64,000 nt of DNA from a virus. The notes beneath the pieces were generated by a model, which was not told where the DNA came from, made no database searches, and saw only the letters and a list, made by a program, of their open reading frames with translations. The stretch lies in IMG/VR virus record IMGVR_UViG_3300050132_000146, positions 1-64,000 of that record; one strand, 5' to 3'. Both the position numbers and the translations under genes were made by a program. This document shows positions 5,657-41,368 of this stretch, piece after piece; the stretch's first letter is position 1; the number at the start of each line of letters is the position of its first letter.

Positions 5657-7849
5657 ATGCCACTAACACCATCACTTGGGTCTCCTACAGTTTCGTTAAT
5701 CACGGTCGGTTCTGCTGTGCTCGGTGGGTCTGTTACCACGGGTAACGGTTCCCCAACCATTGCAATAGGAATTGTTTACGCCCCGGCCTCTGCTGGAACT
5801 GGTGTTCTTACATTGAATCATGCTGGTGCAACCACAATCCAGACATCTTCATTCGCTCAGTACGGTTCTACTGGGGCATTCTCGTTCCACTTCCCTGTTT
5901 CCGGTCTGAGCGCTGGTGTTCTTTACAACTTTGTTGCGGTTGCTGGTAATGTTGTTGGTGGTAATGCTTATTCTTCGGTTGGGCACTTTTCTACCCTTTC
6001 ACAGAACTGCAATCTGTCTGGACTTTCTATTTTTCCAGGTACGCTTACGCCTGGATTTGATCCATCCACAACCTCATACAGCGTTTTACTTCCTGTAGCC
6101 ACCACAAGCGCACAGCTTACGGCCACTAGACAACAAAACAACGCCACGATCAAGATCAATGGTCAGACGGCATCGTCTGGTGGTCTAAATACATTGACGC
6201 TTGTTCCTGGGGCCAATGTGGTTCCGGTTCTAGTTACGGCTCAGGATGGCGTTACGACACAGACGTACACGGTTACGGTTAATTGTGGTTTAGCCCCGGT
6301 TGTATCGTCACCAACATCTTCCGATGTAACATCCACTACTGTAACATTAGGCGGAAATGTGACGAGTGATGGTGGGTCTACGATTACAGATCGAGGTATT
6401 GTTGTTGGGTATAGCGCCATTAATTCAGATACCGCAACAGGAACTCCGTCTAAATTCAATCAAACGCCAATTATTGGCGGACCAAATATTAATCAATATT
6501 CAACATCAGGTACAACGGGTGCATTCACCCTGTCTGCCGCTGACTATTTGGGAGGACCAATATCAATTATTGGTGGTGTAGTGTACTCTTTTGCCGCATA
6601 TGCAACAAATGCAGCGGGAACCACATATAGCGATTACGCTAAGTTCACAACCGTTGGCGCTGACGGGTTTATCAGTTCATTCAAGATCAGCAAGGGTGAT
6701 ATTTCGCCACTATTTAATCCAGGCGTATTCTCATACACATCAACTGTACCAAACTCTGTTTCAGAGATCTCTATTTGCCCCACCCCTCTTCATAGGGACA
6801 CGGTTTGCAGTATAAACGGAAATCCGGCAGTAGGTGGAACCGGTTACGTATTCCCGCTTGTTGTTGGAAGTAATGTGTTTACCGTCATTGGTGTAAGCGG
6901 AAACGGATCAAACACCCGTACCTACACCCTAACCGTAACCCGATCAATATTCCAAATCCAAGTAAACTCCCCACTAGCCTACGTAATCGGTGGTAAATTC
7001 GGGAACCAACTAGTCTATGGAAATACCGGACTAAACGTACAAGAAGCTGGCGACATCACAACGGATCGTTTCGGCGTGTCCGCAGGTACGTGTGTGTTCG
7101 TTTCTCCAAAGAACAATGTACTTGAACTATCCGAGCAATTCCTTCATCTAGGAGTCGCAACGCATCCGTATGCGAACTGGCTTGTACTAACCAACAAGCG
7201 CGTAGTCATGTCTCCCGGTGTCTCAACCGTTGTCTGCACCTTCGAAGGGATCAAAAACCCCTCCGAGTTCATCTACAGCTTTGAAGCAGGTGCCACGCAG
7301 GAACCAATCCAAACCCATCCAAATTTCATCATCCTGGGCCAGCAATACGGCGTATGGACCGTGACTGATCCGAATACTCAGGTTTCTAATATTGTGGGAG
7401 GTGTTGAGGGTGGCATATTGCCGTCGTATGCTCAATTGTATCAGGGTCAGTTCGGTGGATTCCGCACAACCTCGAAACTTGCTGGTCTGGAGAACTACCT
7501 TGACTTCGGTGGCGCTACTTGGTCAGCAACTCAGGCCACTCCAGAGCCTCCGACTAACGCCCTGGCTACGATTGGCCACATATCAGTCCCTCTTGGCACC
7601 CCACCCATCTTCGATGATGGTCGAAGCGTGTTCTTCATTGGTCGCGGACCAAAAGGAGCCATCCTCGAAGAAATCGACTCGATCCAGCGTAACTGGCTGT
7701 ATATGGGCATGAACTTCACGCAACGAGGTTCGGCATACATGGTTACGCACAACTGGCTTTTGTCTGGTCCTGGTGGGTGGAATCCACTTATCTACTCCAA
7801 CGTTCCATTCGATCTTGGCGACGTTCAATCACCCGACTTCACCCTCTAA
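5657..7849 (+). CDS. Multi-domain beta-sandwich tail protein (Ig/FN3-like and cadherin-like repeats)
   Basis: A 730-residue Ser/Thr/Gly-rich protein. Residues about 1-115 and 210-330 are two fibronectin/Ig-like units that each end in a YxF-A-x-A-xN-x-x-G motif and a FST/FTT strand. Residues about 120-210 and 335-430 are two cadherin-like beta-sandwich units (PF12733 style) with signatures LSxLxxxxGxLxPxFxPxxxxY and YTLTV. The last 300 residues form a separate domain, perhaps the virion-anchoring or receptor-binding part. Such domains commonly decorate phage tails and bind surface glycans weakly. It follows the tape measure directly, so a distal tail or side-fibre role is likely. Confidence 0.75.
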   Translation: MPLTPSLGSPTVSLITVGSAVLGGSVTTGNGSPTIAIGIVYAPASAGTGVLTLNHAGATTIQTSSFAQYGSTGAFSFHFPVSGLSAGVLYNFVAVAGNVVGGNAYSSVGHFSTLSQNCNLSGLSIFPGTLTPGFDPSTTSYSVLLPVATTSAQLTATRQQNNATIKINGQTASSGGLNTLTLVPGANVVPVLVTAQDGVTTQTYTVTVNCGLAPVVSSPTSSDVTSTTVTLGGNVTSDGGSTITDRGIVVGYSAINSDTATGTPSKFNQTPIIGGPNINQYSTSGTTGAFTLSAADYLGGPISIIGGVVYSFAAYATNAAGTTYSDYAKFTTVGADGFISSFKISKGDISPLFNPGVFSYTSTVPNSVSEISICPTPLHRDTVCSINGNPAVGGTGYVFPLVVGSNVFTVIGVSGNGSNTRTYTLTVTRSIFQIQVNSPLAYVIGGKFGNQLVYGNTGLNVQEAGDITTDRFGVSAGTCVFVSPKNNVLELSEQFLHLGVATHPYANWLVLTNKRVVMSPGVSTVVCTFEGIKNPSEFIYSFEAGATQEPIQTHPNFIILGQQYGVWTVTDPNTQVSNIVGGVEGGILPSYAQLYQGQFGGFRTTSKLAGLENYLDFGGATWSATQATPEPPTNALATIGHISVPLGTPPIFDDGRSVFFIGRGPKGAILEEIDSIQRNWLYMGMNFTQRGSAYMVTHNWLLSGPGGWNPLIYSNVPFDLGDVQSPDFTL

Positions 7850-8291: not shown

Positions 8292-9368
8292 TTCGACAAC
8301 CGAGTCGATTACTTGCTCTGGTGTGATTGATGCGATCACGGTGCAGAACTTTGCGTGGGTGCAGGGGCGGTTGGGCGGGAATACGATGTTTTGCGAACTA
8401 TGAAAGAAACACGGGCTACAACCACCCTTTGGCTCAAGTACCGTACAGAAGTCGGGATTTGTCACCCTAAGAGCAGACGGGAATGAACCGAAGATCGCTA
8501 CAGTTGGTATACTCAGCGCCTGGGCTACGTGGAACAAGGATGAATCCGGCGTAAGCGCCACGTCACAGGTTTGTAGAACCGCCACGGATTCACGCATACC
8601 CAACCCATCGTTGGCCAAGTTGGTGCATCCAGGAAGGTCCACCTTCATTTGTCCAGGCTTACCGAACATGAAAACCTCGTGACCCATACTGGCGAGTGTG
8701 GCGCAGACGGTGGATAGTAGAGATGGGTGATAGGATCGTACAGGGCTGCTTGCAGCGACTTGGACGCCAATCCTGAGTGATTGGGTTCGCGGATAGCGGC
8801 GAAGCGCCTCAATGGCCTCTAATGGGCTTACATGCCATTCCAGGCGGCGTGAGTCGAGCGTTATTCCGATCTTCTGCGCGAATAGGTCTACAGCGTGGAT
8901 GTGTTCGGCTTCGGGGTTGTGCTCGATTAGGTTTTCATAGAAATACACAGCATCTCCTGGCTCAACAATGGATTGAGGAATTGGGGATGACATGACTTCA
9001 CAATTTACTCCATCGAAAGCAATCTTGTACTCATCGCCACAGACAACCACAACCCGGCACCTTGGCCACTTTGTTTTAAGTGCACGAATGGTTGGACCCA
9101 TGAAAAGACAATCTCCGTGGCCACCATATCTCCACAAGTACACTGTATGACCGTTCATGGAACGACGTGGTTGGATGGGAATATCGAACGCCTCGTTTAC
9201 GTGGGTCATGGACAAAAGGGATCGGCTCTTTCCGTCTGGACACGGAATTAACTGTGTGTCCTGAAGCATCATTCCTGATGTCTGACTGGTCAGCCAGTAC
9301 CGCTCCCCTGGCATCATGGTTGCGCCGCCAAAGACTGGAACCGGGTAATCGACTGAGACTAAATTCAT
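8256..9368 (-). CDS. Glycosyltransferase family 9-like (heptosyltransferase fold)
   Basis: 370 residues with the GT-B layout of family 9 enzymes such as the lipopolysaccharide heptosyltransferases. The N-terminal half has LWRYGGHGDCLFMGPTIRAL, the glycine-rich acceptor-side loop. The C-terminal half has ALTPDSSLFHVAQALSIP and VAIFGS, the usual ADP-sugar-binding region. It shares a 4-base overlap with the next gene upstream in the same operon. In a phage it might add a sugar to virion proteins or change host surface polysaccharide; the sugar cannot be read from sequence. Confidence 0.8.
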   Translation of the reverse strand: MNLVSVDYPVPVFGGATMMPGERYWLTSQTSGMMLQDTQLIPCPDGKSRSLLSMTHVNEAFDIPIQPRRSMNGHTVYLWRYGGHGDCLFMGPTIRALKTKWPRCRVVVVCGDEYKIAFDGVNCEVMSSPIPQSIVEPGDAVYFYENLIEHNPEAEHIHAVDLFAQKIGITLDSRRLEWHVSPLEAIEALRRYPRTQSLRIGVQVAASSPVRSYHPSLLSTVCATLASMGHEVFMFGKPGQMKVDLPGCTNLANDGLGMRESVAVLQTCDVALTPDSSLFHVAQALSIPTVAIFGSFPSALRVTNPDFCTVLEPKGGCSPCFFHSSQNIVFPPNRPCTHAKFCTVIASITPEQVIDSVVELLGRQKHPAID

Positions 9369-9958
9369 GGTGTGTAAAACGTGTGGCTTTCTGGAAACAA
9401 TTTATCGCACAACATCGCGCTGATCTTCCGCATATCCGCGTAATGCGAGTCGGGAGGTGGAGTCCTGGATGTGCCATCGTCCGTTACCTTTGCTCGACCC
9501 CCTGTACCATCGAATCCCACAAGCGTCAAGCTCGAACATCCTAAATAATAAGCAAAGTGAATCGCCGGATGTGACGAACTAGTGGCGATGTATAGTTGTT
9601 TGGACTTCGCCAGCTCATCACGAGTCTGGCGTAAGCGACCAGCACGACCCTCAACGGTGTTACCGAAGTGGGCAAACGGCAATGAGTCATCCGGCAGGAA
9701 TGAGCTTTCTTTACCCCAGGCGTTCAAGTATGGAATACCGCGAATCCACTGTGTTGGATGATGGCTCCACTGATTTGCGTCCTGATCGCATGAAATGCTA
9801 TAATGTGTTTTTGTTACCGAGCACACGTTATTAATCCCAATCACAATATGCCCGCTCGTATCGGGCTTATTCTCCAGCCACTTATCCAACGATGGACCAC
9901 GGCCAAGGAGGATGCACGGGAATCCCGCGTAACGGTTGTTTAGATTCTCGAATGTCAT
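9365..9958 (-). CDS. DUF115/CST-I-like glycan-related protein
   Basis: 197 residues opening with CILLGRGPSLDKW, the nucleotide-binding motif shared by DUF115 proteins and CST-I-type sialyltransferases (G-x-G-P-S-L). Later ATSSSHPAIHFAYYLGCSSLTLVGFDG matches the second conserved block of that superfamily. It lies between the glycosyltransferase and methyltransferase genes, with a 4-base overlap and a 2-base gap, so the three act together. The donor and acceptor are unknown. Confidence 0.65.
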   Translation of the reverse strand: MTFENLNNRYAGFPCILLGRGPSLDKWLENKPDTSGHIVIGINNVCSVTKTHYSISCDQDANQWSHHPTQWIRGIPYLNAWGKESSFLPDDSLPFAHFGNTVEGRAGRLRQTRDELAKSKQLYIATSSSHPAIHFAYYLGCSSLTLVGFDGTGGRAKVTDDGTSRTPPPDSHYADMRKISAMLCDKLFPESHTFYTP

Positions 9959-9960
9959 AA

Positions 9961-10551
9961 CTAAGGAAGTTGGATCAGGCTCAATCCCCTAGGCGAAGGA
10001 ATATGTATAACCCGATAACCCAACGAATCCAGGTCACGCTGGAGCTGATAAACATCCCTCATAGGGTGATTCGGAGCCGTGTCATGCGTCACAATCATTG
10101 ACCCCTTGCGCATCTTCGGAATCAACATCTTAATCTCAGTCAACCTCAGTCCAATCACCGAATCAATAAGCGCGAAATCAACTGGTAGTTGAAGATTTCC
10201 GATAAATTCAAGCGAGTCGCTAACATTCACGTCCACCCAATCAGTCAGTCCAACTTCGTTGATGTTGTGGACGGCATCCGCTGCTTGGTCTGTGTGCAGC
10301 TCAATGGTAGTTACTGATCCAAATCCATTCTCCCGGCAGGCGTGACCCATGACGGCGGCAGTGTAGCCATTCTCTGTTCCGGTCTCCAGGATGTGCGCTG
10401 GCTTGTAGTTGAGGACTAGGGCGTGGAGCAGGACGGCTTCCTCGACCGACATCGCCCCCTTGCCCCAACCTCCTTGATGGAAGAAGGGAGACATGGTTAA
10501 CTGTGGATGGCAGTCCGGTGAGGTGATTTCTCTGGCTAGGATGTTGTGCAT
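9961..10551 (-). CDS. Class I SAM-dependent methyltransferase (Methyltransf_24-like)
   Basis: 196 residues. ILETGTENGYTAAVMGHAC is the SAM-binding glycine motif, SVTTIELHTD carries the acidic residue at the end of strand 2, and VDFALIDS is motif II. The frame extends upstream to 10722, but ATG at 10551 is preferred because it follows an AAGAAATAAACAC leader of the type used elsewhere here and the conserved fold begins after it. First gene of a minus-strand trio with two glycan-type enzymes, suggesting sugar or protein O-methylation (inference). Confidence 0.75.
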   Translation of the reverse strand: MHNILAREITSPDCHPQLTMSPFFHQGGWGKGAMSVEEAVLLHALVLNYKPAHILETGTENGYTAAVMGHACRENGFGSVTTIELHTDQAADAVHNINEVGLTDWVDVNVSDSLEFIGNLQLPVDFALIDSVIGLRLTEIKMLIPKMRKGSMIVTHDTAPNHPMRDVYQLQRDLDSLGYRVIHIPSPRGLSLIQLP

Positions 10552-13215: not shown

Positions 13216-13451
13216 TTGCCTCTGTAGCAAGGGCGGGACTAGACTCGTCGCGGTCGGGGTCGGCGTCGTGGTCGCGGTCGCGGTCGGGGTCGGCGTCGTG
13301 GTCGGGGTCGCGGTCGGGGTCGGCGTCGTGGTCGCGGTCGCGGTCGGGGTCGGCGTCGTGGTCGCGGTCGCGGTCGGGGTCGGCGTCGTGGTCGCGGTCG
13401 CGGTCGGGGTCGCGGTCGGGGTCGTGGTCGTGGTCGCGGTCGGGTTCCTAA
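13212..13451 (+). CDS. Possible Ser/Arg-rich repeat protein
   Basis: 79 residues from an ATG overlapping the previous stop as ATGA. After residue 12 it is made only of Ser, Arg, Gly, Ala and Trp (SRSGSASWS repeats) because it crosses a 30-base tandem array. The array is also open in other frames, so coding is uncertain; the coupled start is the only positive evidence. Confidence 0.35.
   Translation: MIASVARAGLDSSRSGSASWSRSRSGSASWSGSRSGSASWSRSRSGSASWSRSRSGSASWSRSRSGSRSGSWSWSRSGS
13251..13445 (+). repeat. GC-rich tandem array of 30-base units built from GGTCGN hexamers
   Basis: Five 30-base units run 13251-13400, four identical and one differing at one base (13281-13310), then degenerate hexamers to 13445. 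Every unit is itself made of the hexamer GGTCG(C/G/T). The strand is G-rich and its complement C-rich. It reads as Ser-Arg, Val-Ala/Gly or Arg-Gly in the three plus frames and Arg-Pro on the minus strand. Length variation by slippage is expected. Confidence 0.9.
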
Positions 13452-13465
13452 AGCAGAAAATTTAA

Positions 13466-13499
13466 CCCACGACCATGGCGTCAAACCCGTGGTCGTGGG
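13466..13499 (+). terminator. Hairpin after the tandem array
   Basis: Perfect 10-bp stem CCCACGACCA / TGGTCGTGGG with a 14-base loop. Its arms contain GGTCG-type sequence and may derive from the adjacent array. A short T-run (AACAGTTTTG) follows, so termination is possible. Confidence 0.45.
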
Positions 13500-13514
13500 A
13501 ACAGTTTTGAGAAT

Positions 13515-13651
13515 AGAGTAGAGCGTCGTTGTGGATGGTACACAAGCGCATTTCCAGCGAGACCGCATATCTCATCTGTCATAGCGTGGGCCAGCAGGAC
13601 TGGATAGCAAATAAGGCCCAAAAGAACGTAAAGTCGTTCACGCTCTACTCT
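13515..13651 (+). promoter_or_regulatory. Long-arm stem element A upstream of gene 13693
   Basis: 12-bp arms AGAGTAGAGCGT (13515-13526) and ACGCTCTACTCT (13640-13651) enclose 113 gene-free bases. The right arm is followed by GCCCTCAAA, a box that also follows element B at 15505-15591. Probably a folded 5' leader or small RNA. Confidence 0.55.
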
Positions 13652-14485: not shown

Positions 14486-14529
14486 CCCACGCCACCGTTT
14501 CGGCATTTGAAGTACCGTGGTGGCGTGGG
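14486..14529 (+). terminator. Hairpin between genes 14169 and 14552
   Basis: 11-bp arms CCCACGCCACC / GGTGGCGTGGG around a 22-base loop, followed by GAATTTT. It could terminate the upstream unit and also lies 22 bases before the next ATG, like the other stem elements of this zone. Confidence 0.55.
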
Positions 14530-14551
14530 GAATTTTCAACAACACAAAACC

Positions 14552-14941
14552 ATGTACCAACTTTCTCAGCAACTCCGAGAAGCTGCGGATATTCTTGATG
14601 GTGGATTGAAGTGGGAGTGTTATGAGGAGCGCGTATCCTCATGGTATCCATCAGGACAAACCACACGATCTGTTTCCGAGTGCGTCTGGAAGAGAATCCC
14701 AATCCGTCGCTACACCGAACCAAAACAAGTCCAACTCGAACAAAAGGACTGGCTGGTTGGTGGTCCTTGGTATTTTAGATCAAAAACAGATCTAGCAACG
14801 ATTTTCATGGCAACTAAATTCTATGAAAATGCGGTTGGGTCATTCGACCGATATGGCGATAGGGATCATTCATCAATGATGTCTGATTACGAACGCTCCA
14901 ACGACGGGATCAACTGGCAACCATGCTCGAAACCGGAATGA
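14552..14941 (+). CDS. Hypothetical protein
   Basis: 129 residues from ATG 14552 (leader AACAACACAAAACC). The first 60 residues (LSQQLREAADILDGGLKWE...SVSECVWKRIPIRRY) contain a pattern seen in small phage proteins of unknown function. It overlaps the next gene by ATGA. Soluble and Trp-rich. Confidence 0.6.
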   Translation: MYQLSQQLREAADILDGGLKWECYEERVSSWYPSGQTTRSVSECVWKRIPIRRYTEPKQVQLEQKDWLVGGPWYFRSKTDLATIFMATKFYENAVGSFDRYGDRDHSSMMSDYERSNDGINWQPCSKPE

Positions 14942-15674: not shown

Positions 15675-15992
15675 ATGGCTACCCACACACTCCAGACGAT
15701 CTTCGTGAACATCAACGGCAACAACCAGCCGTTCCCTGTCACGCATGGTACCACCGGCAATTCCTTCCTGGGCAACTCCACCAACCGCGATCTGTTCCAG
15801 ATCCCGGCCAATGTGGACGTTCTCGTGAACGGCGTCGGCGGCAGCGCTGGCGATCTCGGCCTCCGTGCCGGTGACGTGCTGACCTTCCAGACGAAGGCCA
15901 GTTCCAAGGCCGCCAAGGGCACCCTGCCCGCTGGCGTCAAGGTGAAGAAGGCCGCAACCGCGACCAAAAAGCCCGCCAAGGCGAGCAAGTAA
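15675..15992 (+). CDS. Ubiquitin-like (beta-grasp-like) small protein, PRTRC protein C position
   Basis: 105 residues from the ATG at 15675, after leader ACAAACACACACAT. Residues 5-20 (TLQTIFVNINGNNQPFPV) read as a beta hairpin and residues 47-72 (NVDVLVNGVGG ... LGLRAGDVLTFQT) match the closing strands of beta-grasp proteins, where an L-x-x-GD-x-(V/L) turn is typical. It lacks a C-terminal Gly-Gly; the tail is Lys/Ala-rich (VKVKKAATATKKPAKASK). It is followed by E2-like, ThiF and JAMM genes, the partners of prokaryotic ubiquitin-like proteins. A palindrome and terminator follow it, so it may be made in excess over its enzymes. The fold call is inference from pattern plus neighbours. Confidence 0.55.
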   Translation: MATHTLQTIFVNINGNNQPFPVTHGTTGNSFLGNSTNRDLFQIPANVDVLVNGVGGSAGDLGLRAGDVLTFQTKASSKAAKGTLPAGVKVKKAATATKKPAKASK

Positions 15993-16093: not shown

Positions 16094-16945
16094 ATGCAAA
16101 AATCATCAGTACTAGCAAACTGGCCCGTGAGCCAGCAATCCATCGAACAGTTCGATGTTGTTGATTTTGACGGAAGTGTTCGTGCACCAGCGGCGACATT
16201 CCGAAAGACAACCACGTATGAGTTCGTCGGTCTTGGTGGTATCCCTACCACTCAACAGTCTTTCATGTCTATGACACCAATGCTTTCAATCCCATTCAGT
16301 GAACTCGGAATCGCCGAATCCGGCAACGCTGAGTTCAAGATGTTCTTGTCCAAGCATGAAACGATGGGAAATATCTTCCTCATCAAGATGCACATGATTC
16401 GTCTGAACACGAAGTTCTCGGTAATCCAGGACAATGTAACCACCCCAGGAGTCGATGGTGCTGATGCAACGATTACACAAACATCACTCATCGTCCCGAA
16501 CTACACATCAGGTGTAGGACTTGCTCCAGTCTGGACTATGCCAGAGGCATCCGATTACGACTTCTGGCTTCTGTCGAAGTGTCCGTACACAGATCGTGGA
16601 CAGGCACATTTCTTCGCGGCCAAGAAGTCGAACAAGATGACTATCGGTAGACCTCCGCTTCCAAACTGCTTTGGCGACACCCGCTTCTGCATTGGAAATG
16701 AGGAATGGTGCCGACGTGGCGCATCTGATCCAATCGAGGTCGCCAAGGCTGCGGTAAAGGCAGCATTCATCAATCAGTGGCAGACGGACCTTCTTACCGA
16801 ACAGGCCAAAGAGGTTTCGAAGCGAATCTTCCGGTTCGATATTGAGACACAGAAACAGGTACCAACTGTTCCAAACTTCGCAACTGACTGCGGAGCTGTC
16901 GCCCATCAGGCAATCAGCAATATCATGTCAATGGTTGTTGAATAA
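16094..16945 (+). CDS. E2-like conjugating protein (PRTRC protein B / Prok-E2_D-like)
   Basis: 283 residues. The key block is residues 186-233: RPPLPNCFGDTRFCIGN followed by a helix ending AAFINQWQTDL. This matches the PRTRC protein B pattern (aPLxNVxxxGxVCxGN then a Phe-rich segment), the E2-like family known as Prok-E2_D. Cys199 in FCIGN is the likely thioester Cys; Cys192 is the alternative. The N-terminal 150 residues are beta-rich and unassigned. It follows the ubiquitin-like gene across a terminator and precedes the 80-residue gene and ThiF. The assignment rests on this motif and on synteny; overall similarity to known PRTRC B looks low. Confidence 0.6.
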   Translation: MQKSSVLANWPVSQQSIEQFDVVDFDGSVRAPAATFRKTTTYEFVGLGGIPTTQQSFMSMTPMLSIPFSELGIAESGNAEFKMFLSKHETMGNIFLIKMHMIRLNTKFSVIQDNVTTPGVDGADATITQTSLIVPNYTSGVGLAPVWTMPEASDYDFWLLSKCPYTDRGQAHFFAAKKSNKMTIGRPPLPNCFGDTRFCIGNEEWCRRGASDPIEVAKAAVKAAFINQWQTDLLTEQAKEVSKRIFRFDIETQKQVPTVPNFATDCGAVAHQAISNIMSMVVE

Positions 16946-16946
16946 T

Positions 16947-17189
16947 ATGAAAGTACAACTTCACGGTGCCACTCGTGAGCAATTCGAGATTGGCCAAACA
17001 TTCGCATTCACATCCTGGCAAAAGCGGTCAGATCCAGGTAAAACGCTGCGTCAGATGGAAAACATCAAAAAGCGTAGTTCATCTGCCGAATTCTCATTGT
17101 CGGAGGCATTCCCAACAGGAGTTCCTGTTCCGGATATTACCAACATCCAGAAACCCCAACGCCTAGAATCAGAGCCACTATTCCCATGA
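16947..17189 (+). CDS. Small protein within the conjugation cassette, unknown
   Basis: 80 residues from ATG 16947 directly after the E2-like stop. The first half is mixed (MKVQLHGATREQFEIGQTFA), the second Ser/Pro-rich and probably disordered. It overlaps the ThiF gene by ATGA. It may be a structural partner or second small modifier; there is no terminal Gly-Gly. Confidence 0.6.
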   Translation: MKVQLHGATREQFEIGQTFAFTSWQKRSDPGKTLRQMENIKKRSSSAEFSLSEAFPTGVPVPDITNIQKPQRLESEPLFP

Positions 17190-17899
17190 CCCCAAAACAC
17201 ATCCACGTAATCGGTTGCGGAGGCGTTGCCTCGCACCTACTCACTGCGCTCATTCAGACCGCAGAATTCGCCATGGACTGTCCCACCATCCACTTCTGGG
17301 ATGGTGACAAGTACGAGGACAAGAATATCGCTCGCCAGTTCCTTGCAAAAGGACGTGAGGGTCAATCGAAGTCTGAAGTATTCGCTGAGTACTATGGCGC
17401 TCTCTACGGAGGAACCATCATCGCTCACGATCAGTATTTCTTCGCTGACACATACACCATCGAAGAGAACTCCTTGATCATCTGCGTTGTGGACAACCAC
17501 CGTGGACGGCGTGAATGCAGGGAATCAGCAAGGCGCTCAAGTTCCATACTTGTTTCTGGTGCAAATGAGACGGAATCAGGTGAGGCATGGGTGTGGCTTC
17601 GTGAGAACGAGGGAAAGAATACTGATCCTTGGGTTCGCTATCCTGACCTTGAGACAGACGTTGGTATTGACCCGCTTCACGCGCAGGGTTGTCAGTCCGA
17701 ACTTGCAATCGTGGACAATCCACAGATCCCTGCTGGTAACATGCTCACTGCGGCGTGTATCGTGGGCCTTATTCAGGGAACGATCCTTGGTACCGAGGAG
17801 TATTGGGGCTACAGGTACAACCCAGCAGAGTACCGTTTCGTGCGGAATGGTCTCTTTGGTAAAACATTCGCACAACTGGAGACCACGACTACGCTATGA
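17186..17899 (+). CDS. ThiF/E1-like adenylating enzyme (PRTRC ThiF type)
   Basis: 237 residues forming one Rossmann adenylation domain. IHVIGCGGVASHLL at residues 6-19 has the GxGGxxS nucleotide loop. FWDGDKYEDKNIARQF at 37-52 contains the D-x-D, Asn, Arg and Gln residues that bind ATP. Asp103 in VVDN is the Mg-linked Asp of the family. GCQSE at 168-172 places Cys169 where E1 enzymes carry their thioester Cys, just before IPAGNMLTAAC. E1 enzymes adenylate the C-terminus of a ubiquitin-like protein and pass it to an E2, matching the genes before it. No extra UFD or domain fusion. It overlaps both neighbours by 4 bases. Confidence 0.88.
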   Translation: MTPKHIHVIGCGGVASHLLTALIQTAEFAMDCPTIHFWDGDKYEDKNIARQFLAKGREGQSKSEVFAEYYGALYGGTIIAHDQYFFADTYTIEENSLIICVVDNHRGRRECRESARRSSSILVSGANETESGEAWVWLRENEGKNTDPWVRYPDLETDVGIDPLHAQGCQSELAIVDNPQIPAGNMLTAACIVGLIQGTILGTEEYWGYRYNPAEYRFVRNGLFGKTFAQLETTTTL

Positions 17900-19833
17900 A
17901 CCATAATCCGCACGGAATTACAAATGACCAGATCCCGGAAGGTTGGAGACTTCTGACGGTAGAAGAACTTAGTGTTCTCGCAACAAGAGCGTATGGTGCG
18001 CAATATTGGGATTGCGATAATGGTGAGTTTAGGTTTAACTCATCATTCAGAGATCGATCAGGATCAAACGTTGGTGTAGCAACTACCTCAATCGTGCCCA
18101 ACGGATGGTCGGCAACAAACCAAATACACGAACCAATGCAAACAAACCGAATGACAGCAGATCAGTATGTTGACTGCTACAATCCAGATCAAGTTCCACT
18201 TGATTCTGTGCCAGATGGGTGGAGGATCATGTCCAGAACTGAAGCCACACCAATAAGGTTGGTTGATGGAGCTAAATATTGGTACGGTGCACCACGAGTT
18301 CCGGTCTTCCGATTTGCATCGGAAGAAAGAAACGGAATAGGAACAAGCCAAGTTGGAGGTTCCGACACCTGCATCGTTCCCATCTCGTGGGTTGATCCAA
18401 GGACCGTTGTGACACCAAACCGAATGACCCAACAGCAGTTCGATGACTCGTTCAACCCAAGCGATCTCACACTCGATCAGATCGAAGATGGTTGGACCAT
18501 CGTAAGTCGAACTGTTTCTGAACCTGGCGAATGGATACACGGAGCTGAGTGGTGGGATGGTGATGCGTGGTCTGATTCTGAGGGTACCCTTGGACGTGGG
18601 TGTTATGGTGATACTGTTGTAACCATTCGAATCAGAATTAACCCACAGACTGAATCGGTTGATGACGTGCCCGAACCAGAGCCTGAGCGTCACTTCAACA
18701 TCGTCGCCGAAGTCCAACGAATCGAACCATCCTTCACAATGGCTGAAATCCTTTCCACGTTCGCAACGTGTGGTGAAGAGTCGCAAGGAAGGGTGGATAG
18801 GTTGTTGGCTAGAGACCGTCAGTCTGATTATGACTCGTGGGAACGCTCGGCTCGCATTAACTCTGGTAGGCGTTCAACAAGAATCGTATGCGCCATTCAG
18901 TGTGCACTTCTCGCATTCGCTCACCCTGAGATCACCCAGGTCACACCAATTGCCACGCCAACCCCTCCGGTGGCACCAGCAACGCCTCCGGTGGGCTTGC
19001 GTGAATATCACAACCCTCGTAATGTCACTCTGGACGACATGGATGGGTGGACGCTTTGTCGGGTCGGTGAGCATATTCAAGGCAGTCGTATTGATGGTGC
19101 GCAATACTGGAATATTGATTCAAGAACATGGAGATATCAGTATTCCAGTGATCGCTACACCCTCTTCTACCCAGAAGAAACCATTCGTAAGCCCGGATCT
19201 ATGGGTCCGCCACCAGACCCTAACTCACCGGACCCTATTGTTCGCCTGACCATAGCGTGCCGTCGAAAGACGACTCCCGACATCAAATCGGCCATCTTCA
19301 CAAACCCCGCATCCTCAATTGTCTACACCCTGGCAAGGATAGAGATCAGTGAGAATGGTTGGTACAACACTCTGGAGGAGCAGCCTAAGACCCATGATGA
19401 ATGGGTTACGTGGCTTAATGCTTGTACTACCGAGGCCCCGCCACCTCCAGTCGTTGAACCTCCGCAACCGAATGATGATGGGGCACCCGCGTTCACTGTT
19501 CGAGTAACATGGAATAATACATGCGTATTGATTCATCATCAGCCATCCACTACTCCGTTTTCGTCAGAAGTTATTGTGCCAAATCACATTGCTCGCCGTG
19601 GAGCTGATGCGGTATATGATTATATTAATAGAGAGAGGAGTCTTGCCCCGGTTTCGGGAGAAACCGTTCTTGGTAGTATTGAGCACAATTCAACATACAG
19701 ATACAATGAACGTGATCTTGAAATCCCAATGTTCAATCCTCTTGAAGAATGGCAAAGAGCCAATGGAATCGTCGAAGAAACTGACGAGGAAGAATCAGAA
19801 GATGAACACGAGGACGAAGACGAAGATATTTAA
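17896..19833 (+). CDS. Four-repeat protein between E1 and JAMM genes, novel
   Basis: 645 residues. Four copies of a roughly 65-residue module begin near residues 4, 92, 186 and 373, with signature NPxxLTxDQIxDGW-(R/T)-(I/L)-xxR...GAxYW...FR. Between repeats 3 and 4 is a helical segment (HFNIVAEVQRIEPSFTM) and a Thr/Pro linker. A C-terminal domain (residues about 490-620, FTVRVTWNNTC onward) precedes an acidic tail DEEESEDEHEDEDEDI. No known family recognised. It starts inside the E1 stop (ATGA) and precedes the JAMM gene, so it belongs to the cassette. A conjugation target, scaffold or E3-like adaptor is possible, but no RING or HECT features are visible. Confidence 0.8.
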   Translation: MNHNPHGITNDQIPEGWRLLTVEELSVLATRAYGAQYWDCDNGEFRFNSSFRDRSGSNVGVATTSIVPNGWSATNQIHEPMQTNRMTADQYVDCYNPDQVPLDSVPDGWRIMSRTEATPIRLVDGAKYWYGAPRVPVFRFASEERNGIGTSQVGGSDTCIVPISWVDPRTVVTPNRMTQQQFDDSFNPSDLTLDQIEDGWTIVSRTVSEPGEWIHGAEWWDGDAWSDSEGTLGRGCYGDTVVTIRIRINPQTESVDDVPEPEPERHFNIVAEVQRIEPSFTMAEILSTFATCGEESQGRVDRLLARDRQSDYDSWERSARINSGRRSTRIVCAIQCALLAFAHPEITQVTPIATPTPPVAPATPPVGLREYHNPRNVTLDDMDGWTLCRVGEHIQGSRIDGAQYWNIDSRTWRYQYSSDRYTLFYPEETIRKPGSMGPPPDPNSPDPIVRLTIACRRKTTPDIKSAIFTNPASSIVYTLARIEISENGWYNTLEEQPKTHDEWVTWLNACTTEAPPPPVVEPPQPNDDGAPAFTVRVTWNNTCVLIHHQPSTTPFSSEVIVPNHIARRGADAVYDYINRERSLAPVSGETVLGSIEHNSTYRYNERDLEIPMFNPLEEWQRANGIVEETDEEESEDEHEDEDEDI

Positions 19834-19857: not shown

Positions 19858-21399
19858 ATGATCTACATCAACGACAAGAATGAGGTTCTCGAACGTCGAG
19901 AAACCTCCATTGGTTCAGCCTTCGTTTCAACCAGGATTAAGGCAATCCCAATCGCACAACGAGCCTACATCAACTTCCAAAAAAAGATGCCGCTCGCAAT
20001 GTGGCGTCAGATGATTGGATTCTTCCTGTGGTCTCAAAAGGAGCATAAGTCCGAGGCACAGGTCACTGGATTCATCCACCAAGATACTGGTGAGTGGTTC
20101 ATGATTCCTTTCCACCAGATCGGTATTGGAATGACAACCAAGGAGGTTGAGGGTGGTGACAATATTTCCCTATGGGAGCAAATCATACAAGCCGGATTCG
20201 GTCCAAACCCAATCTTCACCGGCCATCACCATTGTACTTCGTCTGCGTTCGCCTCTGGTACAGACACTACCGACGAGTACACGAACAAGCCCCAAGGAGT
20301 ACACATCACAATCGGCAAGTTGGACTCAAACCCACTTGACCTACATTGCCGAGCAAAGCTGTCGTTCATGGGTCAGTTCAATCAGGAAACTGGAGAGGTA
20401 ATCTCACCTGGAAGCTCAATCCTTCTACCATCTCACCCTCTTGAGTTCGTTGAAACCGGACTTCGTAATGAGGATGTTGGCGGAATGAATGACGTTCTCA
20501 TCAAGCAGATCACTGAGTTCTTCCTGCTCAAGAAGGAGGAGTGGGAATTCCCAGAGGAGTGGAAGGCGCGAATGACAAAACAGTCTTACGCCACACACAG
20601 CACAGTCACATACACACCAGGGGGTCATCTATCCTGGAAGGACAGCAAGAAGCGCCCAAAGTCCCGGTGCCCGGCGAATACGAAGTATCCGCTGGTTCTG
20701 GTAAACAGCGTGGTAAACATCTGCGCAAATCCGCTAAATACAACCGCATGGTTCGACGCGGTAAGAGAGGCGGTCACTAAGAAGGAGCCAGAGAAGCTCG
20801 AAAACTTCTTCAATGAAATGTGTGATCGGTGCGGATATGCCAAACCAAATAAGGAATGGTGTTGGGCGTGGCTTGAAGCGTGGGAGATTGCTGACCTTCT
20901 CTTGAATTGCAAGAGTGGCACCGACTATGTATTTGACAACCTTCCTGGAGAGTACTACGATGCGCTTCTGGTTAGCGTTGTTGTGGCCATGTATGAGTCG
21001 GACATCAATGCAGAAGCGTTCCGCGCATACTTCACCAACAACAAGGCTCTTGAGAATACCGGTAATGACCCAGCTTTCAAGGAGTGCGGAATCCACACGC
21101 TCAATATCGGCAAGAAGCCAAATACTGGCATCTGGAATCTGTATCAGAAGATGTACGACAAGGCATCCAACGAGTTCATTGATCGTCACTCAACCGTGAA
21201 CAAGGAGGCTCAGACAATCTTTGAGGCCAAGTTTAAGGAAATGGGAGTTCCAAAGGAAGAACTTGTGTTCGATGCCGGTGAAGACCCAGAGTCCGAATTC
21301 TACGGATACTCTGCCGAAGAGATCGCTCAAATGGAAGGGTATGGACTCACATTCCCTGATTACCAGGGAAGCAGCTCATACGCAGGAAGAATCCTCTAA
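19858..21399 (+). CDS. JAMM/MPN metallo-isopeptidase-like protein with C-terminal extension (PRTRC protein A-like)
   Basis: 513 residues. The complete JAMM zinc signature is present: His123-x-His125-x7-Ser133-x2-Asp136 in GHHHCTSSAFASGTD, with Glu66 in SEAQVTGF as the upstream catalytic Glu. JAMM enzymes remove or process ubiquitin-like modifiers. Here it would mature the ubiquitin-like protein, whose Lys-rich tail hides any diglycine-type end, or reverse conjugation. The domain spans about residues 10-200. The following 310 residues are unassigned and include a Cys pair (CDRCGYAKPNKEWCW) and helices. The gene closes the cassette, 24 bases after the repeat protein. Confidence 0.85.
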   Translation: MIYINDKNEVLERRETSIGSAFVSTRIKAIPIAQRAYINFQKKMPLAMWRQMIGFFLWSQKEHKSEAQVTGFIHQDTGEWFMIPFHQIGIGMTTKEVEGGDNISLWEQIIQAGFGPNPIFTGHHHCTSSAFASGTDTTDEYTNKPQGVHITIGKLDSNPLDLHCRAKLSFMGQFNQETGEVISPGSSILLPSHPLEFVETGLRNEDVGGMNDVLIKQITEFFLLKKEEWEFPEEWKARMTKQSYATHSTVTYTPGGHLSWKDSKKRPKSRCPANTKYPLVLVNSVVNICANPLNTTAWFDAVREAVTKKEPEKLENFFNEMCDRCGYAKPNKEWCWAWLEAWEIADLLLNCKSGTDYVFDNLPGEYYDALLVSVVVAMYESDINAEAFRAYFTNNKALENTGNDPAFKECGIHTLNIGKKPNTGIWNLYQKMYDKASNEFIDRHSTVNKEAQTIFEAKFKEMGVPKEELVFDAGEDPESEFYGYSAEEIAQMEGYGLTFPDYQGSSSYAGRIL

Positions 21400-25105: not shown

Positions 25106-26875
25106 TTAGGGGTTGGGCTTTTCGGGCTCGTAGATTAGTCCGCAGATTGCGGCTGCGCAGATATTCATCATCTCACATGACGCAAGGTGATCTTTTCCTT
25201 CACGCTTACAGAACCATTCAATCTGAACCACGCCATCCTTACCCATGTATTCACGCTGCTCATAAGCCGTGGATTGTAGGGCGTATTCTGGATGTGCGTC
25301 TTTATGAAACTGGAAATCACCAAGTTCTCCGTGCTGCATCATGGTTAATCGCTCAAGGCACGATGGCTTTGAGTAAAACCAAAGCGTCAGTGGCTTCACC
25401 CGGCCCGCTAAAGCAGTACCAATTGCAGGGTCAGCAAGAGTTGAGGTGAAGATAGCTTTACGTCCATCCTTTTGGAAGTGCTGCTTGTCTTCACCCTTGA
25501 ACGCCTTGTACTGATACCCAGAGTCCACGACCATACGATAGATTTCCGTTGCCCAGTGGCCAGAGTCGATGGCAATGTTTCCTGGCTCTACGCCCCAATT
25601 TCTAGCAATTTGTTCCCACTCTTCCTTTGACCATACGCGTCCACAATCAAGAAGACGTGACTGAGCCCCGGTTCCCCAGGCTCTAATAACATACCAGAAG
25701 TGTCGTCCGCCTTTACCCTGAACGTCAATCGTCATGATTCGACGCTTTTCTTCAGGCCACGGTTCTTTTGGGTCGTAATCCCGCTGACGCTTGTAGATGA
25801 ATTTTTCATCCTTGGCGTACAAAATACGCGAATGGTATGGCTGGCCACATGTTTCTGTAATCCAAGATTTCAATGGCTCTGGGTCTCCCCATTGCATGGC
25901 CTGTAGTGCCTTAATACGCTCGATTACCTGCGTCTTCCACTCTGCCCAATATGGAAGTAGCGCATTCCATGTATAGCTCCTTGTATCGCTTGGGGCATTT
26001 GGGTTGGTAACGACCCATCTTCCTGAGTTGCCGAGCTGCTTCCTTTGCCTTATATTATCCGTAATGATGCCATCACAAGCACAGCACTCCCACCTGATCG
26101 TTTTGGTCAGTTTATCAAAGTCGATGCTTCCGTCCGTAGATTTTGTGCTTTCGTCCTCCGTCCAGGTCAATCCGCCTTTAATGTCATCGTCCTTCCATCC
26201 GAGTGGTTGCTCCTTGCCGCAGTGAGGGCAGGAGATGTGATAGACTTGGGCGTTGCCGTCCAGGAAAGATCGGTGAAGGGCATCCATTTCTCCAGCCGGG
26301 GTAGAGATGATGATCTCTTTAAAGTTGTGGGAGAAGGAGCGTGTACGCTTACGAACCATCTCCAGAGCGCCCGGAGGGTACGAGCGAGCTTCGTCTAGGA
26401 AGAGGTAGCGGAAGGGTGTGGACTGGAGAGCGGCTTTGTTTTCCGCAGATGCAATGATAAGAGGAGCGCCAGGAAAGTAGATTTCAAGTGTTTTGTTTCG
26501 TGATCGGGTTTTGGGCATCTTTGCTGCGACCGGGGCGCAGGCTTCGAAGATGGGGAGGATTCGGGATTTGGCGATCTTTTGGGCTTCGGTTTCGTTCTTC
26601 GTTAACCACAAAATCGGCCCTGGGTCCTCGCTAATCGTGTAGGCGAGCAGGCACAGGAAGGTGAGAGTCTTGGCTGACTGGGCTGAGCACATGCAGGAGA
26701 TTCGTCGAACTGAGTCGTCCGCGAAGTCTTCCATAATTGGGCGCAGCCACTGGCAATCAGCGGAACTCCAACGAGCCCCCGCCGCATTCATCTTGTCGAT
26801 TACATTTCGCTCAGACCACTGCCACGGATTGCACTCTTGAGAAGGTCGGACTGCTGTGCATAAAGTCGCGACCAT
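25106..26875 (-). CDS. terL: Terminase large subunit (GpA-like)
   Basis: 589 residues from the ATG at 26875 (a GTG at 26899 is also in frame). The ATPase half has CNPWQWSERN, the adenine-side motif, CSAQSAKT (residues 63-70) as the degenerate Walker A typical of GpA-type terminases, and YLFLDEARSY with Asp161-Glu162 as Walker B. The nuclease half has IMTIDVQGKGG and IAIDSGHWATEI, carrying metal-binding Asp residues. It packages DNA at the portal. Its start overlaps the small subunit end by 76 bases. Unusually it lies on the minus strand, 28 kb from the portal gene. Confidence 0.93.
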   Translation of the reverse strand: MVATLCTAVRPSQECNPWQWSERNVIDKMNAAGARWSSADCQWLRPIMEDFADDSVRRISCMCSAQSAKTLTFLCLLAYTISEDPGPILWLTKNETEAQKIAKSRILPIFEACAPVAAKMPKTRSRNKTLEIYFPGAPLIIASAENKAALQSTPFRYLFLDEARSYPPGALEMVRKRTRSFSHNFKEIIISTPAGEMDALHRSFLDGNAQVYHISCPHCGKEQPLGWKDDDIKGGLTWTEDESTKSTDGSIDFDKLTKTIRWECCACDGIITDNIRQRKQLGNSGRWVVTNPNAPSDTRSYTWNALLPYWAEWKTQVIERIKALQAMQWGDPEPLKSWITETCGQPYHSRILYAKDEKFIYKRQRDYDPKEPWPEEKRRIMTIDVQGKGGRHFWYVIRAWGTGAQSRLLDCGRVWSKEEWEQIARNWGVEPGNIAIDSGHWATEIYRMVVDSGYQYKAFKGEDKQHFQKDGRKAIFTSTLADPAIGTALAGRVKPLTLWFYSKPSCLERLTMMQHGELGDFQFHKDAHPEYALQSTAYEQREYMGKDGVVQIEWFCKREGKDHLASCEMMNICAAAICGLIYEPEKPNP

Positions 26876-27396
26876 GTTTGGTCCCGCCGTCGTCCCCACT
26901 CGCCAAGGGATAGCTCTTGGAGGATTCTGCGAGCGGATTCACCCAGGCGCTTAGTGAGTTCTGGGGTATCTAGGCCGGAAAGGTTCTGGGCGAGTTCATG
27001 CTTTTCTCGCTTGAGGGCTTCAGCGAATCCGTGCGCCATGTCTGAATAGACCCGTACCACTTCATCCCAAGCTACGTATTGACCCTCAGCAACATCGTTG
27101 TCGAACTTCTTTTGGCGACGGGTTTCCTCAAGAATCGCCATCTGAACCGCGTGTTTAGCGGTGGTTGAGCCAGATACTTTTGCGCTAGAAGCCTTGCCAT
27201 AACGCTCCATCCATGCCTTCCAGGCATTAATAGCGTAACGCTTATCCGTCCGTGGGGTAGGGGATTGTTCCTCTTTTACCCAAAGTCCTATACACTGGAC
27301 GGATACACCAAGTTCACGCGCCAGTACAGCTTGATTCTTTGCCAGGGGTCCGTCCGATGAATCCTGGATTTCCGGGGAGAATTTGTGTTTTGCCAT
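26800..27396 (-). CDS. terS: Terminase small subunit (Nu1-like)
   Basis: 198 residues. KNQAVLARELGVSVQCIGLWVKE is the winged-helix DNA-binding motif of Nu1-type small terminases, followed by the long helical oligomerisation region (QMAILEETRRQKKFDNDVAEGQYV). It directs the large subunit to the packaging site. Placed just upstream of terL on the minus strand with a 76-base overlap. Confidence 0.85.
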   Translation of the reverse strand: MAKHKFSPEIQDSSDGPLAKNQAVLARELGVSVQCIGLWVKEEQSPTPRTDKRYAINAWKAWMERYGKASSAKVSGSTTAKHAVQMAILEETRRQKKFDNDVAEGQYVAWDEVVRVYSDMAHGFAEALKREKHELAQNLSGLDTPELTKRLGESARRILQELSLGEWGRRRDQTWSRLYAQQSDLLKSAIRGSGLSEM

Positions 27397-38072: not shown

Positions 38073-40028
38073 ATGAGTACAACACAAGCACCAAAACGAG
38101 CGAGTAAGCTCAAAGCAAAGAAGCCAGAAGACCGGGAGCCAACTAAACCGAAGATGCTTATCTTTGGACAACCGGGCGTAGGTAAATCACAACCACTGTC
38201 GGCCAATATCCTAACTCCATCTGGCTGGGTAAAAATGGGAGACATTAAGGCCGGTGATATGGTCATCTCGGTAGACGGAAATCCAACAAAGGTTCTTGAG
38301 GTTTATCCTCAAGGTGAACTCGATGTGGTTGAATTGGTTTTCCATGATGGATCAAAAACACGGTGTTCAAAAGATCATCTTTGGCAAACAAGGACGAAGC
38401 TTGATAGGGCGGCGAAAAGATTGGGATCAATTAAAGAGACTTCTGATTTAATTAAAAGTATTGAATCCTGCCATTCGATCCCGGTTGTCAGTGAAGTGTA
38501 TTTTCCTGAGAATGAGGTACTAATCCACCCATACATCATGGGATGTTTGCTTGGTGACGGATGCCTTCGTGGCGACGATATAACCATCACTCAGGCGGAT
38601 GAAGATCTGTTCAATAATGTTGAAAAACTTCTTCCAGATGGCTTTAAGCTATCCAAAAGAAGCCATCTCACACGATGCGAAACAAGGTCTATTACAACTC
38701 GTCGTGGAGATAAAAACCCATTCACAGAATACCTCCGATCTGTTGGCCTGATGGGTAAAAAATCACTAGATAAGTTCGTACCAACTGAATATCTCATTAA
38801 CTCTGTTGAAAATCGCATTGCCCTATTACAGGGTCTTCTCGATACTGACGGAACTGTTGGAAGTAGGGGTACCACCGTGAGCTTCTCATCAGCCTCAGTT
38901 AATCTTGCAAATGCGGTTGCATTTATCGTCCAATCACTGGGCGGGGTTGCGTTTCGATCAGTAAGAAGCAAGAGGGGCTATAAGAAGGATGGAATATACC
39001 ATGAGTGTTTGCCATCATTTACAGTAACCGCTAATCTTCCAAACCATATTGCTCCATTCGCTATTGCAAGGAAGTCTGGTAAAGTTGTTGAAAAAACAAA
39101 ATATCAACCATCTAGATTCCTGAAGGAGATTAATGAGTCTGGTAAAGAGTTGTGTCAGTGTATTTCCGTGGACCATCCAACCAGCCTATATGTAACCGAC
39201 GACTTTATCGTCACTCATAATACCTGGTTTTCACTGGACTTCCCAGGATGTTATTACATTGACTCCGAAGGCGGTTCAGCACGAACCCACTACATGGACA
39301 AACTCAAGGCGTCCGGTGGTGAGATCATGGGACCAGAAGAAGGGGCGAATGACTTCGAGACAGTCCTTGGACAAGTCCAGGCCCTGGCTACCGAGAAGCA
39401 TGAGTTCAAGACACTTATCATTGACTCCATCTCCAAGCTGTTCAACTCAGCCGTAACTACCGAGCAGGAACGCCTTGGTGACAAGGATGCCTTCGGTGCC
39501 TCCAAGAAGCCTGCGGTTGCTTACATGCGCCGTCTGGTGAACTGGATTCAGCGCCTGGATATGAATGTCATTCTCGTTGCCCACCAGAAGGATGAGTGGG
39601 GAGTTGATGCAAAGGGTGAGCGTTGCGCCATCGGCCATACGTTCGATTGCTGGGACAAGCTGGAGTATGAGCTTGATCTTGTGCTTCAGTTAATGAAACA
39701 GGGCAGTAGCCGTGTGGCGTCAGTTCGCAAGTCCCGCCTTCTTGGCTTCCCTGATAAGGATCGCTTCCCAATTAGCTTTGACACCTTCGCTGAGCGATAT
39801 GGTAAAGATGTGATTGACAAGGAGGTGAAAGCGGTTATTCTGGCCACGGCTGAAGAGGTTTCTGAGATTGTCCGTCTCGTTACTCTACTGAAGCTTGGCG
39901 AAGACGAGATTAACAAATGGTGGACCAAATGGAACGTTTCCGATTGGACCGAAATGAGCGACGAACAGGCTGCGAAGGCAATTAAGTTTTTGCAGGAAAA
40001 GATCAACCCAACAGTAAAGGATAAATAA
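38073..40028 (+). CDS. Sak4-like RecA-type ATPase, interrupted by an intein
   Basis: 651 codons. Extein residues 1-38 and 384-651 form a RecA-fold ATPase of the Sak4/AAA_24 type used in phage recombination-dependent replication. MLIFGQPGVGK is the Walker A motif up to Lys38; the Thr follows the intein (TWFSLDFPG), giving GVGKT after splicing. FKTLIIDSIS is Walker B; VILVAHQ is the sensor strand. The mature protein would be about 306 residues, normal for the family. It is followed by an SSB-like gene after a 3-base gap, the usual Sak4 partner order. Confidence 0.88.
   Translation: MSTTQAPKRASKLKAKKPEDREPTKPKMLIFGQPGVGKSQPLSANILTPSGWVKMGDIKAGDMVISVDGNPTKVLEVYPQGELDVVELVFHDGSKTRCSKDHLWQTRTKLDRAAKRLGSIKETSDLIKSIESCHSIPVVSEVYFPENEVLIHPYIMGCLLGDGCLRGDDITITQADEDLFNNVEKLLPDGFKLSKRSHLTRCETRSITTRRGDKNPFTEYLRSVGLMGKKSLDKFVPTEYLINSVENRIALLQGLLDTDGTVGSRGTTVSFSSASVNLANAVAFIVQSLGGVAFRSVRSKRGYKKDGIYHECLPSFTVTANLPNHIAPFAIARKSGKVVEKTKYQPSRFLKEINESGKELCQCISVDHPTSLYVTDDFIVTHNTWFSLDFPGCYYIDSEGGSARTHYMDKLKASGGEIMGPEEGANDFETVLGQVQALATEKHEFKTLIIDSISKLFNSAVTTEQERLGDKDAFGASKKPAVAYMRRLVNWIQRLDMNVILVAHQKDEWGVDAKGERCAIGHTFDCWDKLEYELDLVLQLMKQGSSRVASVRKSRLLGFPDKDRFPISFDTFAERYGKDVIDKEVKAVILATAEEVSEIVRLVTLLKLGEDEINKWWTKWNVSDWTEMSDEQAAKAIKFLQEKINPTVKDK
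38187..39221 (+). other. Intein with LAGLIDADG homing endonuclease in the Sak4-like gene
   Basis: 345 residues (38187-39221) inserted between Lys and Thr of the P-loop. It starts SQPLSANILTP and ends DDFIVTHN before Thr. LAGLIDADG motifs are IMGCLLGDGCL and LLQGLLDTDGT. Three residues define class 3 inteins: Trp in block B (SKDHLWQT), Cys in block F (LCQCISVDH) and Thr at +1, all present. Ser at position 1 is therefore probably not the nucleophile. Closely related to the intein at 44652-45692. Confidence 0.88.
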
Positions 40029-40585: not shown

Positions 40586-41368
40586 ATGATAACAAGAGAC
40601 GATATTACATGCGATTTCAGGGGACCACACACGGTCGTTGGTGAACTTAATCTACGAGTTACGCATAACGCCATTACGGGAGATTTTGGGCAAGGCCCAG
40701 ATCGACTGCCTGCAATTCATGGGGTTCAGGATGCTATTCTTGACTCCATCTATGGAGATGTTCGTGAGAATGCTGAAAGTCTAAGGGGAGCTTTCATTGA
40801 CTTAAATCAAGAAGGTCTTACTACAAGAGAATATCAGAACCGAATTGATCGTTTTATGAACATTGTGGATGTTCTGTGTAATACTGGTCTAACTATTGAG
40901 GATAACGAACCAACAATCCGTGAGCGTGTCATTAATGCCGGTCGGCGAGGTAATGGTCTTCTGGGTACTGCGCAAGCCGGTATAGGAGGTATGGGACCAT
41001 GGACGGGTGGTATTACGCGAGTTGGAGGATCACCACTCAATCCGGTGCGTGAAACACCTCCACCCCCACCGCCCGACCCATCACGCCTACACCCGAACAC
41101 GGTGGCTGAGATTAACTCCCAGCTAGACGCGATGCCAGATCTTACGCCTGCGGCTCGGAGGGTGGCTTTTAACAACATCGTGGCTGAGTATATCACGCAT
41201 CTTCCTACTCAAGCAAGGGTAAACAACCGGGTTACACGCCCTCTTGTTGAGCCTGATATTTACGATCTAGGTCGAGTACCTGAAGCCATGACTGGCATAG
41301 CTCAAGCCATGACTCAGCATGAGCCTCTTATGATGACCGAGGAAGATACTCTGCCTGTACCATTCTGA
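40586..41368 (+). CDS. Unknown protein with SSB-like acidic tip
   Basis: 260 residues. An N-terminal beta/alpha part, a Gly-rich region, a Pro run (TPPPPPPDPS) and a helical end. It finishes MMTEEDTLPVPF, also resembling the acidic tip of SSB proteins. No other family features. Lies between the SSB-like and RuvC-like genes; its stop overlaps the next start (TGATG). A recombination accessory role is inferred. Confidence 0.6.
   Translation: MITRDDITCDFRGPHTVVGELNLRVTHNAITGDFGQGPDRLPAIHGVQDAILDSIYGDVRENAESLRGAFIDLNQEGLTTREYQNRIDRFMNIVDVLCNTGLTIEDNEPTIRERVINAGRRGNGLLGTAQAGIGGMGPWTGGITRVGGSPLNPVRETPPPPPPDPSRLHPNTVAEINSQLDAMPDLTPAARRVAFNNIVAEYITHLPTQARVNNRVTRPLVEPDIYDLGRVPEAMTGIAQAMTQHEPLMMTEEDTLPVPF

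Follow-up and report, generated by a model that had tools for sequence, protein, structure and literature searches.

The closest described systems are the prokaryotic ubiquitin-like operons, PRTRC-like ones among them, in which a candidate ubiquitin-like modifier (Ubl), an E2-like protein, an E1 and a JAMM protease lie in one row (Iyer et al. 2006, PMC1779556). In the literature searched, no other paper fitted a phage cassette of PRTRC or ubiquitin-like type. Among phages, Vibrio phage D69 and Salmonella phage Arash harbor cassettes whose E2-like, JAMM and E1 proteins carry the same motifs as those found here. Lysine deserts have in turn been described as protecting components of ubiquitin systems (PMC10169902) and as being commoner in phages of pupylating Mycobacterium (PMC10665810).

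We analyzed a 64,000-nucleotide stretch of DNA (the window), which makes up the greater part of an IMG/VR virus record of 65.1 kb and in which 854 open reading frames (ORFs) were compared. As in the described operons, Ubl candidate, E2-like protein, E1 and JAMM lie together, in a packed + strand gene row from 15.7 to 21.4 kb:

15675..15992, +, candidate ubiquitin-like modifier (Ubl), with a tail of about 24 residues past a KG-like end
16094..16945, +, E2-like protein with the motif P-x-P-N-x2-G-D-x3-C-x-G
16947..17189, +, small gene of 80 aa, with an ATGA overlap with the E1 start
17186..17899, +, E1, a ThiF-family adenylating enzyme (PF00899, E=2.6e-9, above cut-off)
17896..19833, +, four-module repeat protein with an ATG start (645 aa, 72.8 kDa, pI 4.6)
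19858..21399, +, JAMM metalloprotease (HxHx7SxxD) with an extra C-terminal part of about 300 residues

The Ubl candidate was the best of the 854 window ORFs against a profile of nine phage Ubls from E1 loci, with a weak E-value of 0.041, and hhalign aligned it with phage Ubls at P=2.6e-5 (probability 75). In an alignment, the motif of the E2-like protein is common to the D69 and Arash proteins; no match of weight to this protein was found in Pfam, PHROG or NCBIfam. The HxHx7SxxD motif of the JAMM protein aligns with three phage JAMM proteins, and a search with its N-terminal 200 aa retrieves the JAMM ORFs located at the E1 loci of other phages (best E=5e-8). An E1 and a JAMM thus flank the repeat protein, in agreement with an earlier reading of this DNA made without database searches (here the sequence-only reading). 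The E1 also matched PRTRC_ThiF (TIGR03736) at E=4.5e-10, under the curated cut-off of that model, and because of this we call the row PRTRC-like rather than PRTRC in the strict sense.

The repeat-protein ORF lies exactly where it had been placed, its ATG overlapping the E1 stop codon (ATGA at 17896-17899), and a gap of 24 bases separates it from the JAMM gene. Since ATGA-type overlaps also occur at 17186/17189 and 21565/21568 in the same row, the junction with E1 is not special. Tight packing with E1 and JAMM is compatible with a shared function, though it is usual in this row. A phage E1 profile recovered 30 IMG/VR loci, all 30 with a JAMM-motif ORF nearby; because JAMM precedes E1 in 29 of these 30 (ORF-to-ORF gap of at most 515 bases), the order E1, repeat protein, JAMM seen in the window is unusual. 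The sole locus of the 30 with E1 before JAMM, L065, has two tandem JAMM-motif ORFs after E1 (8604-10434). Several cassettes carry a second, diverged E1-like gene after the Ubl gene (L063, 9211-10071; L068, 10201-11088; L078, 9413-10273), and tandem three-copy Ubl-like proteins are encoded near phage E1 genes at 4936-5568 in L055 and at 5391-6182 in L002.

The repeat protein contains four degenerate copies of one module of about 65 residues and an acidic tail. Its parts are listed below, with the scores obtained from a profile built exclusively on modules of other phages (the external profile):

17902..18111 (residues 3-72), +, module 1 (29.4 bits at residues 3-40)
18178..18396 (residues 95-167), +, module 2 (7.9 bits at residues 96-130; self-match to module 3)
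18451..18651 (residues 186-252), +, module 3 (24.6 bits at residues 187-249)
18688..18930 (residues 265-345), +, region between modules 3 and 4, then a Pro/Thr/Ala linker, as seen in the sequence
19009..19197 (residues 372-434), +, module 4 (22.3 bits at residues 372-434; AlphaFold model)
19468..19755 (residues 525-620), +, possible C-terminal domain, as suggested by the sequence
19768..19830 (residues 625-645), +, acidic tail (15 of 21 residues D/E)

When the protein was compared with itself, the best off-diagonal match joined modules 2 and 3 (score 127; shuffle maximum 52, n=100). The next pairs scored 57, 52, 51, 51 and 51, so that the weaker pairs, taken one by one, are close to what shuffled sequences reach at best. 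Module 2 alone is not significant against the modules of other phages and is tied in via module 3. Residues 265-345 are probably helical, as judged by eye. The acidic tail noted by the sequence-only reading was borne out, and the separate C-terminal domain that it had also described is plausible; AlphaFold modeled residues 524-624 with a pLDDT of 41. No relative of residues 265-345 or of residues 525-620 was present among the fetched loci. On visual inspection, residues around 570-620 looked like the terminal part of a phage Ubl, an identity that we rejected (hhalign P=0.27).

To find the module elsewhere, we scanned viral contigs with DNA patterns. The first pattern, corresponding to NPxx[LIV]TxxQ[IVM]xxG[YW]R, hit 10 contigs, six of them with an open-frame module; L011, L013, L015 and L018 were dropped, the pattern lying there in a 30-residue open frame. 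A second pattern hit 12 contigs, of which six were already known, one (L023) was dropped as chance and five were new and carried the module. The final set thus comprises 11 other module-bearing IMG/VR records of 5.9-186 kb, representing 8 distinct lineages, with three pairs having the same protein. Searched against 3477 ORFs, a profile of nine external modules, none from the window, scored the repeat protein at 86 bits (E=3.8e-25), while 2000 shuffles of the whole protein reached only 7.5 bits, and the four domains that it found lie where the sequence-only reading had placed its four modules. Because the selection pattern spans the first 17 residues of the module, and that part is therefore biased, we scored the remainder of the module alone. 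It still gave 18.4 bits (E=8.6e-5 among 854 ORFs), compared to 7.7 bits reached by 1000 shuffles. Furthermore, in L021 and L022 two more neighboring genes that had not been selected by the pattern bear the module (47 and 37 bits).

The relatives in these 11 other records carry an unnamed phage module of the form HNPxxLTxxQVGxGYRLL...W...TYRxP (L009, L010, L012, L014, L019, L020, L021, L024), which is the same module by the 86-bit profile match. Unlike the window protein with its four copies, these proteins have one or two copies, alone or fused to small modules, and no E1 or JAMM accompanies them. In two near-identical records the module forms a row of three stand-alone small genes, and in five other phages it is fused behind another small module (the N-module). 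The latter is also encoded in the window, as a separate gene:

14507..14941, +, gene with the N-module of five other phages (profile of five, E=8.1e-7)

This is the only one of the 854 window ORFs matching the N-module profile under E=0.1, the next ORF having an E-value of 0.27, and the sibling gene sits 3 kb upstream of the repeat protein. The phage therefore holds two pieces of one modular repertoire, only one of which lies between E1 and JAMM. In the 186 kb phage contig L021, a long row of ORFs of about 80-100 residues runs from 97-876 onward to 12554, and the first three have one module copy each.

Family searches gave no name to the protein. No family in Pfam, PHROGs or NCBIfam matched it, and seven single- or double-module sequences gave no Pfam match and one PHROG at E=0.11. 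By tblastn, the whole protein had no match in phages or plasmids, a single module matched phages only at E=0.3 or worse, and the multi-module relative L019 had no match in phages. The best of the single-module matches, in Vibrio phage CKB-S1, was outside the annotated frame and was discarded. Bacterial genomes gave no hit by pattern scan and 18 stretches by a profile-derived scan, none of which was confirmed; prophage carriage of the module was thus not seen. Searches of phages, plasmids and viral contigs gave no relative that shares the layout of the entire protein. The module itself is absent from Pfam and PHROGs, no publication on it was found in the literature looked at, and we regard it as undescribed.

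A single-module structure prediction, also proposed by the sequence-only reading, was obtained for module 4 and led to no known fold. The AlphaFold model (14-row alignment; pLDDT 75, pTM 0.61) shows a short helix and four short strands, and structure searches with it in PDB and BFVD yielded nothing at E<=0.001. A mixed whole-protein alignment spreads single modules across several repeats. Two further identities were rejected: a kelch repeat, whose best chain in a PDB sequence profile search reached E=4.9e-6 only by summing weak pieces, with no stretch passing alone, and an Lcl_C ("GWRLPT") domain for module 1, which had no Pfam match at E<=10.

The sequence-only reading had considered the repeat protein to be dedicated to the modifier pathway, and had named its occurrence mostly in genomes lacking E1 and JAMM as the result that would speak against this. 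This is what we observed. None of the 11 other module-bearing records has a ThiF protein (PF00899), a phage-type E1 (phage E1 profile) or a JAMM, though these records may be fragments, as may all records compared. The phage E1 and JAMM searches were controlled on five E1-bearing records and on the window itself, all of which were detected. Conversely, the module was not found at E<=0.01 in any of the 30 whole E1-bearing IMG/VR records, in the two E1-bearing records in new contigs added by a second E1 scan of 15 loci (0/32 in total), or in the GenBank E1 phages D69, MT835919 and Arash (0/3). This is in agreement with the remark of the same reading that comparable cassettes lack such a protein. 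Two of the 30 records gave weak module matches (E=0.024 and 0.037) from an Lcl_C-like motif. The one in L048 was set aside, PF07603 (Lcl_C) matching there at E=1.7e-6, under its cut-off, and a weak match in Arash (E=0.0135 over 25 positions) was counted as no match on its E-value alone. Because none of the 11 other module records has E1 or JAMM, the position between these two genes does not make the protein dedicated to the pathway, and gene neighborhood alone would have misfiled it.

We thus hold it somewhat more probable than otherwise that the repeat protein is a lineage-specific, binding-type accessory protein rather than a core pathway component. Its building block is a small phage module that is also seen in other environmental phages, within modular proteins or standing alone. 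Four copies would have been joined in tandem here, in a gene that ended up flanked by the E1 and JAMM genes of a PRTRC-like ubiquitin-like operon. The small, strand-rich, aromatic modules, the Pro-rich linkers and the acidic tail suggest a non-enzymatic binding array; the module model behind this proposal is moderately confident (pLDDT 75) and matched no known fold. Such an array would be made together with the operon and would probably act against or upon a host protein. Having lost its lysines, it would escape any lysine-directed conjugation operating alongside it in the cell. Even if the protein is accessory only, it brings to light a small phage module that family libraries miss.

Indeed, the repeat protein is strongly depleted in lysine. 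It has 5 lysines and 49 arginines in 645 residues (0.8% lysine), compared to an average of 6.4% lysine in the remaining 51 ORFs of the window that reach 120 aa (binomial 3.6e-13), a set that contains some false antisense genes. Its lysine-free runs span 126, 304 and 147 residues, and the run of 304 makes it a lysine desert, defined as a lysine-free stretch of at least 150 residues. The modules share in this depletion, 2 of their 269 residues being lysine compared to 25 of 588 in related modules (Fisher p=0.005), with none at all in modules 1 and 3, and the five related-module proteins that we counted contain 3.6 to 7.7% lysine.

These numbers favor the most interesting live rival of the accessory reading, namely, that the protein is a lineage-specific receptor or scaffold of the pathway that presents host proteins to the charged E2 and, through lysine loss, avoids being modified itself. 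The start codon within the E1 stop, the JAMM gene 24 bases downstream, the scarcity of lysine next to plentiful arginine, the particularly lysine-poor modules and the runs of 304 and 147 residues would all fit, and the lysine deserts of ubiquitin and pupylation systems offer precedents (PMC10169902, PMC10665810). The window protein shares with these the lysine-free stretch of at least 150 residues; no link to a proteasome or to pupylation is known here. Lysine scarcity is thus compatible with a protected pathway partner. However, the protein is missing from all other phage cassettes examined, and the flanking proteins are not deserts (3.0% lysine in E1, 5.3% in the E2-like protein, 9.5% in the Ubl and 7.0% in JAMM). 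Moreover, a second desert lies far from the operon, at 40586-41368 (0 lysines and 22 arginines in 260 residues; no family in Pfam or PHROGs). With a second desert this distant and none among the flanking proteins, lysine depletion is more characteristic of this phage than of E1 phages as a group. Lysine-depleted genes (at least 200 aa, p<1e-4) make up 3 of 24 in the window, 1 of 243 in other phage E1 loci, 1 of 34 in module loci and none of 67 in lambda, Mu and the first 50 kb of P1, in counts that use longest-first ORFs with some false genes and, for the E1 loci, the + strand only. Lysine-poor ORFs exist elsewhere too: among 379, 27 had less than 1.2% lysine with more than 3% arginine, several of them in GC-rich loci or antisense-looking by eye. 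We consider the scaffold or adaptor role, which the sequence-only reading had also offered, tentative and rather unlikely, and as applying to this one copy.

A further reading is more doubtful still: a foreign tandem-module protein would have been recruited as a lysine-free receptor whose modules grip host proteins for modification by the charged E2, the purged lysines sparing the receptor, and the product of 40586-41368 may be spared likewise. To our knowledge, no targets have been identified for ubiquitin-like cassettes of this type in phages, and an almost lysine-free, gene-overlapping, multi-module protein in such a cassette offers a concrete candidate for their receptor.

We judged it improbable that the protein is a virion or tail-associated structural protein lying in the operon by chance. 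Repeats and an acidic, lysine-poor composition would suit a structural protein, and lysine-poor ORFs are found in other viral loci, such as one in L011 with 2 lysines in 342 residues. Against this, there is no PHROG match, and the portal and terminase genes are located elsewhere in the window (25106-26899, 54680-56446). The neighbors of related modules were read by eye. The listed relatives of the terminase are only about 25% identical and come from many hosts. At 5657-7849 the window encodes a protein of 730 residues in which lysine and arginine are both scarce and which weakly resembles a family of major head proteins (E=7e-4).

The proposal of the sequence-only reading that the protein is a substrate, its repeats accepting the phage's own Ubl through lysine to give a decorated multivalent protein, is very unlikely. 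Only the position between E1 and the deconjugase favors it, and it is disfavored because the 645 residues include just five lysines, none of which falls in modules 1 and 3; an N-terminal or non-lysine Ubl linkage may occur. That the four repeats are decayed Ubl copies is barely credible: D69 and L055 do have three tandem Ubl-like copies near E1, and D69 carries its three-copy protein in place of the module, but a single Ubl candidate is already present in the window, the modules match the external profile instead, no GG or KG ends were seen in them, and the repeat protein is not among the listed Ubl-profile matches at E<=5.

Two other features of the window were observed. On the - strand, the ORF at 13239-13568 consists largely of a Pro-Arg dipeptide repeat and represents a simple-repeat DNA stretch. 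In addition, a RecA/Sak4-like ATPase (AAA_24, 38073-40028) and a DnaB helicase (43965-46340) each contain a LAGLIDADG_3 insert, and these are probably two related inteins in one phage.
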